Shown in pieces: positions 479-30,348 of a DNA stretch of 33,471 bases. The stretch lies in assembly GCA_028688835.1 (NCBI GenBank), contig JAQTXL010000010.1, forward strand, positions 1 to 33,471. The letters are read 5' to 3'. Numbering within the stretch: the first letter of the stretch is position 1; every line of letters starts with the position of its first letter. A program made the translations under genes and the position numbers. The notes beneath the pieces are model-generated. The model made no database searches, was not told where the DNA came from, and saw only the letters and a list, made by a program, of their open reading frames with translations. This DNA is from Candidatus Nanopelagicales bacterium. Its GTDB lineage: Bacteria > Actinomycetota > Actinomycetes > S36-B12.

Positions 479-1771
479 ATGAACACGAGGATGCATGCAC
501 ATGGAATGCAGCGTTGGGTTCTTGCGGGACTCGCACTCACGTGCACGACGCTGTCGCTCGCCGTCCCGATCGCGGCCTTCGCCGCCGAAGGGCCTCCCGG
601 CGGTGGCGGTGCGCCGCCCGGCGTACCGGCCGGACCCCCGGCCGGCATCCCCAGCGCACCCCCTGCGGGCGTTCCCAGCGGGGTCCCGACAGGCATCCCC
701 ACGGGCGCACCGTCAGGCATTCCTTCAGGCGTGCCTTCAGGAGCGATCCCGTCCGGTGTCCCTACCGGTGCGATCCCGTCCGGCGCACCCGCCGGTGGGC
801 CTCCGGCTGGCATCCCCACCGGGGCCATGCCGAGCAACCTGGGCGCCCTGACCTCGGGAGGGCTGGCCGACATCGACCCCACCAAGTTCGCCGGGCTCAC
901 CCCGACCCAGCTCGACGCCCTCAAGCCCGCAGCGCTGGCAGGCCTGTCGCAGGAGCAGCTGGCCAACATGAAGCCCGCGAGCCTGGGCTCGCTGAGCGCA
1001 TCGCAGTTCAGTGCACTGCCGCCTGCGTCGATGGCCGGACTCAAGCCGGAGCAGCTGGCGGCCATGGGCCCCAATGAGATCAAGGGCATGACACCCGACA
1101 TGCTCGACGCGATCCCGGCAGCGGCCCTGAGCGCCTTGAGCTACGACCAGATGCTGGCCCTCAAGCCGGCCGTGATGTCGCAGATCTCCGGCGAGCAGGT
1201 CGCCGCACTCTCCGCAAAGGCGATGGGCGCGCTGTCCAAGGAGCAGCTGGCCCGCATTCCCCTCGAGTCCATTGCCGCCATCTCCTCGGGCCAGCTCGAC
1301 AAGCTCAGCCCGGCCTCGTTCCCCGGCTTCAGCCCTGAGCAGTTCGCTGACCTGCGGCCGGCGATCCTCTCGGTGATCGATCCCAAGCAGTTCGTGGGAC
1401 TCAAGCCGGCAGTCATGGGCGTGATGACCGCGGAGCAGTTCGCCGCCTTCACCCCGGCGACGGTCAAGTCGATCACGATCCCCCAGATCGACAGCCTGGC
1501 TCCGGCCGCCCTGGCCGGCATGGCGCCCAACGAGATCACGGGGCTCAGCGATGCCAAGATCGCCAAGCTCGATGCGCCGCAGATCGGCAACCTGCCGACC
1601 GCGACCTTCGCCGCGATGAAGCCGAGCCAGTTGGCGGCCATGGCGCCTGCCGATGTCCCGGGCATGACGGCCCCGCAGCTGGAGGCCCTCAGCCCCAGGC
1701 AGGTCGACGCACTCAAGCCCGCTGTCGTCGGTGCGATGAGTGCCGAGCAGAAGTCGGCCCTCACCCAGTAG
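479..1771 (+). CDS. Secreted Pro/Gly-rich protein with 39 tandem octapeptide repeats
   Basis: The 430-residue product begins with a signal peptide (hydrophobic stretch about residues 12-33, cleavage near AFAAEG). Residues about 37-116 are low-complexity Pro/Gly with a four-residue period of the type P-S/T-G-I/V, resembling elastin-like sequence. From residue 117 to 428 the protein is 39 octapeptides in perfect register without one insertion or deletion. Each unit has hydrophobic residues at positions 5 and 8, for example KPAALAGL followed by SQEQLANM. Units carrying Pro-Ala early in the unit often alternate with units carrying Gln at position 4, suggesting a 16-residue super-repeat. There is no LPXTG motif, membrane anchor, Cys or catalytic domain. 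Similar ALTxxQ-type octads occur in some large bacterial surface proteins, but I know of no assigned function. A structural, adhesive or cell-wall-associated role is inference. ATG 479 fits the leaderless promoter; ATG 506 is an alternative that shortens the signal peptide. Confidence 0.85.
   Translation: MNTRMHAHGMQRWVLAGLALTCTTLSLAVPIAAFAAEGPPGGGGAPPGVPAGPPAGIPSAPPAGVPSGVPTGIPTGAPSGIPSGVPSGAIPSGVPTGAIPSGAPAGGPPAGIPTGAMPSNLGALTSGGLADIDPTKFAGLTPTQLDALKPAALAGLSQEQLANMKPASLGSLSASQFSALPPASMAGLKPEQLAAMGPNEIKGMTPDMLDAIPAAALSALSYDQMLALKPAVMSQISGEQVAALSAKAMGALSKEQLARIPLESIAAISSGQLDKLSPASFPGFSPEQFADLRPAILSVIDPKQFVGLKPAVMGVMTAEQFAAFTPATVKSITIPQIDSLAPAALAGMAPNEITGLSDAKIAKLDAPQIGNLPTATFAAMKPSQLAAMAPADVPGMTAPQLEALSPRQVDALKPAVVGAMSAEQKSALTQ
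587..826 (+). repeat. Pro/Gly tetrapeptide low-complexity segment
   Basis: A roughly 12-bp DNA period encodes repeated P-x-G-I/V/A motifs such as GVPSGVPTGIPTGAPSG. It forms the flexible tether between the signal peptide and the octad domain. Such DNA is prone to slippage, so its length may vary between strains. Confidence 0.75.
827..1762 (+). repeat. 39 tandem 24-bp units encoding octapeptides
   Basis: Starting at MPSNLGAL, the translated sequence divides exactly into 39 units of eight residues, followed only by TQ and the stop. Positions 5 and 8 are almost always L, M, I, F or V; Pro is common at position 2; Gln is common at position 4 of every second unit. The DNA units are diverged, so this is an old, selected array rather than a recent expansion. 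Confidence 0.85.
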
Positions 1772-4602: not shown

Positions 4603-5931
4603 GTGATCCGATGGCGACGGTGGCCGGCCCTGCTGGTCGCCGGCGCCTGCGCCCTTGCGGCCGGCGTGCCCACGGCGCAGGCCGCGCCCACGCTCCTGCG
4701 CGGCACGCCCGCCCTCGGCGAGCCGTACACCGTCCAGCTCATCGTGATGGGCACCTCGACGTACGAGCTCTGCAGCGCTGCAGTCTGGAAACCGCGAGTG
4801 CTGCTCACCGCTGCCCATTGCCTCACCGACACGGGGGCCAGCACAGCCGCGGCAAGTAGCCGCATCTTCATCATGCCTCCGGGCGTGGATGCTGCGGTCG
4901 TCTACGCCTCGGGGCCGATCGGTGCAGCACCAGTGCATGTCACCGGCGCATACCTGGGGCAGCAGTACGCCGAGACGTCGAAGGTGGTGGTCGGCAATGA
5001 CATCGCCGCGGTGACCCTCGATGCGGATCTTGCGCCGACGGCGTTCACCAGGCTCGCCGATCGCACGGAGATCACTGCATGGGTGCGAGCACAGCGGGAG
5101 ACCACCATCACCGGCTACGGCATCACCAGCCCCACGGACACCGCGCCGTCGCCACCGCGATCCGCGCAGTTCCAGCTCGTCGAGGCGCAGACCGACCGCC
5201 GCGGGGTGAACGGCTGGACGCTGTGGTCCAACCCCGTCAATGGCGTCGACACATGCCCCGGCGACAGCGGCGCGCCCCAGTACGTGACGGCACCTGCCTC
5301 GACGCTGCTCATCGGCGACATCGCGGGCGGCAACTGCAACGGCCAGCCGCGCACCGCAGAGGCGTTCGCCGCGATCAGCTATCTCGAGGTGCTGAACCCC
5401 GCCCTGGCCGCTGCGGGCTACCCGACGATCCCCAGTGCCCCGCTCGACATCCATGCGGCTCTCGTCGCGGGCAACGAGAGCATCTGGTGGTCCGCGCCCC
5501 AGCTGTCGCCCGACACCGCGGCCTCCTTCGAGGTGCGCGACGCCGCGGGCATCGTGCTCTGCACGGCACAGCAGCGCTCGTGCACGATCAGCCCCACCGC
5601 CGACGCGACGGTACGAAGCGTGAACGCGCAGGGCGAGGGCGATGCAGCACCTGTGCCGACCCCGACGCCGCTGCAGCCGGCCGCCCCGCGCGTCAGTGCG
5701 CGTGCGGGAGCCGTCACGTTCAGCCTCACTGCAGTGGAGGCGCCGATTGTCACTGCCTATCGCGTGGTCGACCAGCGGGGACGGGTCGCGTGCCGTGTCG
5801 TGGCCAGCGCCTCGCCGCTCGGGTGCAGTGCGCGCCTGCCGCGAGGCTCCTACCGCTTCACGGTCAGCTCGAGCACGCAGGCCGGGCGCACACTGGAGTC
5901 GTCGCCCAGTCGCGTGGTGATCATCCGCTAG
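4603..5931 (+). CDS. Secreted trypsin-like serine protease with C-terminal extension
   Basis: A signal peptide (IRWRRW, then a hydrophobic core to about residue 28, AQA-AP cleavage) is followed by an S1-family domain. The triad is visible: His72 in LLTAAHC, Asp133 in GNDIAAVTL and Ser222 in CPGDSGAP. Cys57/Cys73 match the usual disulfide flanking the histidine. The protease domain ends near residue 265. The remaining about 175 residues hold two beta-rich segments with repeated patterns (FEVRDAAGIVLCTAQQRSCTISP and YRVVDQRGRVACRVV), probably two fibronectin/Ig-like modules joined by a PTPTPLQPAAP linker. The protein would be exported and cleave extracellular proteins; the target is unknown. 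The start is GTG under a leaderless promoter. Its TAG stop shares the palindrome CTAG with the stop of the convergent antiporter gene. Confidence 0.9.
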   Translation: MIRWRRWPALLVAGACALAAGVPTAQAAPTLLRGTPALGEPYTVQLIVMGTSTYELCSAAVWKPRVLLTAAHCLTDTGASTAAASSRIFIMPPGVDAAVVYASGPIGAAPVHVTGAYLGQQYAETSKVVVGNDIAAVTLDADLAPTAFTRLADRTEITAWVRAQRETTITGYGITSPTDTAPSPPRSAQFQLVEAQTDRRGVNGWTLWSNPVNGVDTCPGDSGAPQYVTAPASTLLIGDIAGGNCNGQPRTAEAFAAISYLEVLNPALAAAGYPTIPSAPLDIHAALVAGNESIWWSAPQLSPDTAASFEVRDAAGIVLCTAQQRSCTISPTADATVRSVNAQGEGDAAPVPTPTPLQPAAPRVSARAGAVTFSLTAVEAPIVTAYRVVDQRGRVACRVVASASPLGCSARLPRGSYRFTVSSSTQAGRTLESSPSRVVIIR

Positions 5932-28283: not shown

Positions 28284-30197
<1,914 letters not shown>

Positions 30198-30348
30198 GGA
30201 CGCATGCGAAGACGGCACAGCAGCACAACTCTCATTCGAGACGATTTCGCGTGTCTCGAATGGGGCGGCACCTGGCCGCATGTGTTTCAAGACTCGCTCG
30301 TGAGCTCCAGGAGCTCCCAGTCATCGGCTGATGACCGAGGCCACGCTA
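30198..30348 (-). promoter_or_regulatory. Promoter and hairpin-rich leader of the DEAD-box gene
   Basis: On the minus strand TAGCGT (30343-30348) is a -10 candidate, giving a leader of about 139 bases. The leader holds three inverted repeats: GTCATC/GATGAC with a GGCT loop (30320-30335), GAGCTCC/GGAGCTC (30302-30316), and ATTCGAGAC/GTCTCGAAT with a 10-base loop (30234-30261). Long structured leaders are known in cold-inducible helicase mRNAs, so post-transcriptional control is plausible here. Confidence 0.45.

Follow-up and report, generated by a model that had tools for sequence, protein, structure and literature searches.

A secreted protein of 39 octads, new member of the ALTTAQ / HeliScrew repeat family, in a Candidatus Nanopelagicales bacterium: a candidate extracellular structural element

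The gene at positions 479-1771 of contig JAQTXL010000010.1 (Candidatus Nanopelagicales bacterium, assembly GCA_028688835.1) raises the question of what role can be assigned to a secreted protein of 430 amino acids that consists mainly of one eight-residue unit, repeated in tandem and attached to no cargo domain. The whole analysed stretch, 33,471 nucleotides of this contig read on the forward strand, is designated here as the window, and the following features were assigned to the gene.

479..1771, forward strand: whole gene of the 430-aa, cargo-free octad-array protein (translation).
479..586, forward strand: Sec-type signal peptide, approximately residues 1-36 (basic N-region, hydrophobic core and AxA, with cleavage near AFA-A-EG judged by eye).
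587..826, forward strand: Pro/Gly-rich flexible tether, residues 37-116 (sequence; AlphaFold2 pLDDT of about 32-43; indels among orthologues all N-terminal to residue 117).
827..1762, forward strand: predicted helical-screw solenoid, residues 117-428, 39 octads (Pfam, PDB match, periodicity, orthologues and AlphaFold2).

The Sec-type signal peptide recognised in the sequence supports the secretion that was claimed in an earlier note on this DNA, and the claim that the protein has no enzymatic domain is supported as well. The lipoprotein reading was dropped because the Cys of the signal region is not conserved among orthologues and is lacking in one of them (L005). The tether, which the earlier note had correctly delimited as an 80-residue tetrapeptide region preceding the array, consists of Pro, Gly, Ala, Ser and Thr with P-[STA]-G-hydrophobic tetrapeptides; VPGxG pentapeptides are absent from residues 37-116, and thus the label "elastin-like" was too loose and was abandoned. 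The C-terminal end of the protein is made of octads followed by TQ and the stop codon, and an LPxTG motif with hydrophobic segment and basic tail is absent there.

The array is composed of 39 gapless octads with a residue of the LIVMF set at octad position 5 in 97% and at position 8 in 100% of units, the same set occupying the remaining positions in 0-13%, so that the register read earlier (39 x 8 residues at 117-428, hydrophobic at positions 5 and 8, no indel) is borne out. At the 8-residue harmonics the LIVMF pattern had a Fourier power of up to 13.5, whereas 5000 shuffled versions gave at most 1.75. Within the array, self-identity reached 0.29 at lag 16 and 0.19 at lag 8, compared with 0.03-0.14 at lags outside the multiples of 8; the higher value at lag 16 indicates that two unit types truly alternate, as had also been proposed. 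The resulting 16-residue A/Q super-period is visible at position 4, which is Q in 15/19 even units and most often A or S in the odd ones.

Judged by sequence comparison, the protein is a new member of the catalogued ALTTAQ / HeliScrew repeat family. Pfam PF20080 (ALTTAQ repeat) matched six stretches of the array with 99.1 bits and E=1e-28 (curated cut-off 26.4 bits), and residues 3-120 of chain HeliScrew4 in PDB entry 9zem, whose name hints at an engineered protein, were aligned with residues 121-238 in a gapless 118-residue match of the same 8-residue register (E=9e-16). On these two matches the earlier proposal of a new repeat fold fails. The earlier note had also considered a profile hit to a characterised repeat family with known function: the family found is a catalogued one, a function is not assigned to it, and a literature search returned no paper on ALTTAQ/PF20080, HeliScrew or octad motifs. 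Among the other matches Pfam Mesothelin (PF06060) reached 12.8 bits, under its cut-off of 25.8, and CAAP1 (PF15335) scored 33.7 bits over 37 residues within the array (cut-off 25); the latter profile is also matched by other octad arrays and is read here as repeat cross-talk. The PDB sequence matches to LRR proteins of GSO1 type were set aside as composition cross-talk.

From the single sequence AlphaFold2 predicted a 5-residue helix every 8 residues with moderate confidence (mean pLDDT 54.7), and from an alignment of nine family sequences it predicted a helix-turn ladder to which each octad contributes one short helix, with a solenoid mean pLDDT of 92.8 that may be over-confident, as was reported for AlphaFold2 on perfect repeats of beta-solenoids (PMC11795689). 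Beta-strands are absent from both models, and the solenoid claimed earlier is supported by the nine-sequence model as an alpha-solenoid and not a beta-solenoid. Foldseek ranks obtained with the single-sequence model were useless, and the nine-sequence model was used instead.

Three further orthologues were identified within the genus, in genomes G001 (L003), G007 (whose contig is the deposited UBA11398 contig, L001) and G005 (L005), with solenoids 80, 77 and 53% identical to that of the 430-aa protein. Each of them likewise contains 39 units, and the alignment of the 312 solenoid residues has 0 gaps, in contrast to 8-48 gap columns in the N-terminal part. For the closer orthologue pairs the solenoid gave dN of 0.11-0.15 versus dS of 1.0-1.2, which corresponds to dN/dS of about 0.10-0.15 by Nei-Gojobori counting. 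Beyond the genus the array length changes by whole octads, mostly by multiples of 16 residues (blocks of 8, 16 or 80 residues). Thus, the unit count across relatives proposed in the earlier note gave 39 in each of four orthologues, including the 430-aa protein, with no frame-breaking indels, and the idea that the 8-residue period is under structural selection gained support: as far as sequences can tell, maintenance of the octad register under selection is strongly supported within the genus. Occurrence of the gene within the genus is patchy, since it is missing from several members with incomplete genomes; no conserved operon partner was found within about 5 kb at two orthologous loci, and no match was obtained among phage records.

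The single protein, used as query against the genome collection, retrieved just one genome, and the search for other carriers was performed with probe A3, a gapless 40-column octad profile. Such arrays were detected in 37/85 genomes of the same taxonomic family versus 4/81 other genomes of the order, and PF20080 arrays in 28/85 same-family genomes versus 3/395 in a sample of the phylum. In a set that includes fragments and orthologues, 40/55 arrays with a true stop end at most 5 residues from the C-terminus and 47/55 at most 20 residues from it. The own genome contains a single octad-array gene, without cargo, while in sister genera the arrays follow N-terminal cargo domains such as Peptidase_S8 (subtilases), right-handed Beta_helix, LRR_5 (BspA-type), NIDO, BNR, Ice_binding (DUF3494) with He_PIG, DUF285 with fn3, and several extracellular regions of unknown type, usually joined to the array by a Pro/Ser/Thr/Gly linker. 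When arrays of a beta-helix group (L098, L124) were compared with those of an unrelated group (L099, L113, L123), identity was 53-64% at a single offset and 23-26% elsewhere, and the comparison of subtilase arrays (L104, L109, L114, L118, L126) with that of L115 likewise gave 54-64% at one offset and 27-30% elsewhere; the N-terminal parts of these groups have no BLAST similarity. Collinear arrays on dissimilar N-terminal parts point to one domain, often of about 22 octads, that was shuffled between cargo proteins.

Several further carriers were recorded during this survey. The beta-helix carrier of G009 (L098:1450-3423) has an in-frame stop inside the octad array, which results in ORFs of 587 and 70 aa and reflects either disruption of the gene or a fault of the assembly. 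A sister-genus protein of G077 (L112:1226-3643) contains 72 octads in one array, the longest seen in the family, followed by an 80-residue C-terminal end. In a member of another family of the phylum (G253; L062 and L140) very long octad arrays were observed within an open frame that spans about 2000 residues.

Among plasmids 57 records, mostly of Rhizobium, Shinella and Cereibacter, encode family matches. Three of these proteobacterial loci were read, with arrays of 124-267 octads, and at two of them the array adjoins type I secretion system (T1SS) genes together with glycosyltransferase/polysaccharide or rhamnose genes, a setting that likewise hints at the cell surface; the third locus is without them. 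By inspection no T1SS genes were recognised among the window ORFs near 479-1771, where the upstream side ends at the contig end. The nearest ORF on that side, 3-437 on the forward strand, is a C-terminal fragment cut by the contig end, located about 40 bases upstream on the same strand as the repeat gene and without Pfam match, and it could belong to one transcript with this gene. Elsewhere in the window the ORF 4603-5931 (forward strand) encodes a secreted trypsin-like protease (PF00089) with a C-terminal region of about 190 residues without Pfam match, and the ORF 28284-30290 (reverse strand) is DEAD-box-helicase-like with a long low-complexity RGG-like C-terminal tail containing DDRAPR(T/K/S)(Y/F)-type repeats in roughly at least 10 copies.

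The arrays differ in charge according to the presence of cargo. Cargo-bearing arrays have a mean net charge of +6.9 per 100 aa and +9.3 in the last 11 octads, and in 25/25 cargo-bearing proteins the array exceeds the N-terminal part of the same protein in positive charge. The net charge per 100 aa ranged from +3.7 to +18.7 in 12 cargo groups and from -1.5 to +6.4, mostly near zero, in 8 cargo-free groups (p=0.0005); since the groups were formed by cargo homology after inspection of the data and the sequences are related, this contrast is treated as a lead. The array of the 430-aa protein has -1.6 per 100 aa and is without the basic C-terminal end typical of cargo arrays. Near-neutral charge together with the greater length of the cargo-free form suggests a role as scaffold or matrix fibre rather than as a cationic tail bound to the wall, and simple wall binding is less likely for the near-neutral array than for the cationic ones.

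According to these data the 430-aa protein is, on balance, probably a non-catalytic extracellular structural or attachment element, either rod or scaffold, of the cell surface or matrix. The surface role is deduced from the arrays that serve as C-terminal modules on unrelated secreted proteins of sister genera and from the proteobacterial neighbourhoods, while the idea of attachment is borrowed from sister genera, since a profile scan of the own genome found no cargo-bearing octad array and no match to sortase (PF04203) was obtained in this genome, which is 96.7% complete. Of the roles suggested earlier the wall spacer is weakened, because the array is the last element in most carriers and nothing lies beyond it to be spaced from, and attachment or assembly fits better. 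The protein would be exported by the Sec pathway as a signal peptide, a disordered Pro/Gly tether and a rigid ALTTAQ / HeliScrew alpha-solenoid, in which each octad would supply a single 4-6-residue helical segment plus a short turn, the continuous core would be built from positions 5 and 8, and S, T, K or D at position 1 would, together with P at position 2, cap the next helix. The array would then act as a rod or scaffold at the surface or in the surrounding matrix and not as an enzyme.

A different explanation, which we regard as unlikely, is a wall anchor without cargo, where an anionic polymer of the envelope would be bound by the solenoid itself, as may also hold for the cationic arrays on enzymes of sister genera, and the protein would merely coat the wall. 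The repeat family and the C-terminal placement are indeed common to the cargo arrays, the own genome gave no sortase match, and octad arrays and sortase showed a weak anti-correlation in 59 genomes (p=0.018, and p=0.09 in genomes at least 90% complete, with kinship ignored in both), but the array is near neutral and lacks a basic end, and the genus member G001 carries the orthologue together with two sortases. The further idea that the arrays replace sortase was dropped, the anti-correlation being weak and phylogenetically confounded.

Rather improbable is also a specific receptor or adhesin, whose solenoid groove would recognise a ligand, either protein or glycan, in the manner of mesothelin and armadillo solenoids. 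The closest solved folds of the nine-sequence model are those of mesothelin (7ued, 8cx3; Z 7.4, rmsd 5.8 over 246 residues, with one fragment at 2.1 A over 68 residues), followed by armadillo proteins with Z 5-6; however, Z below 8 is common among helical repeats, and the likeness of the model to both may be only a common arrangement. Entry 9zem was absent from the Foldseek and VIA structure-neighbour lists, which cover structures to April 2026. Conservation of octads is uneven across orthologues, the octad 293-300 being for example invariant at 6/8 positions, but the most conserved octad positions are the core position 8 and position 4, and an exposed hot spot is not obvious.

That the array is neutral low-complexity filler, generated through repeat slippage, is very improbable and, at the level of sequence, refuted: repeat arrays can grow in this way and unit numbers differ widely between genera, but the units have diverged, their number is fixed in the four orthologues, and dN is about a tenth of dS. 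The same nominal 8/16-residue unit and two sister-genus carriers with the DUF3494 ice-binding domain (L131) might point to an octapeptide beta-solenoid of ice-nucleation type, with ordering of water or binding to ice as its function; this reading was dropped as next to negligible on the all-helical prediction without strands and on HeliScrew as the best solved-chain match.

The repeat family as such is already known as Pfam ALTTAQ, and the extension of interest is its modular C-terminal use, which lies outside the window. As a tentative generalisation beyond the structural role preferred for the 430-aa protein, octad arrays are possibly a general C-terminal surface-retention or matrix-assembly module in the secretome of this actinobacterial family, with a cationic cargo-bearing form, often of about 22 octads, and a long near-neutral cargo-free scaffold form. 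If true, such a module would amount to a hitherto undescribed, sortase-independent display system. The comparison offers a testable role for the catalogued ALTTAQ family, namely that of a C-terminal retention or assembly module of secreted proteins, demonstrates the array moving as one collinear block between unrelated cargo, and splits the cationic cargo-bearing class from the near-neutral cargo-free class.

Among known systems the ice nucleation proteins of InaZ type share the octapeptide/16-mer periodicity; however, they are beta-solenoids, whereas the present array is all helical by prediction. The cationic wall-binding repeat modules of Gram-positives, for example GW modules, are an analogy only: like the sister-genus arrays they are cationic C-terminal repeat modules on varied secreted proteins, whereas the array of the 430-aa protein is near neutral. 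Mesothelin, a human cell-surface protein, is the best fold neighbour of the model and is likewise an extracellular solenoid built of short helices, but its repeats are longer and irregular. With the ALTTAQ family the protein shares the tandem octad [ST]-[TP]-A-Q-hydrophobic-A-A-L in one register; the three proteobacterial members read are nearly pure arrays, and two of them (L141, L142) have octads from the very start without evident signal peptide and with T1SS genes adjoining, whereas the 430-aa protein has its own Sec signal and a Pro/Gly tether before its 39 octads. HeliScrew4 differs in having 15 octads that are near-perfect repeats. The 8-residue unit of natural helical screws is, to our knowledge, one of the shortest in any alpha-solenoid, and thus a natural and conserved example of 39 units may be useful to repeat-protein design.
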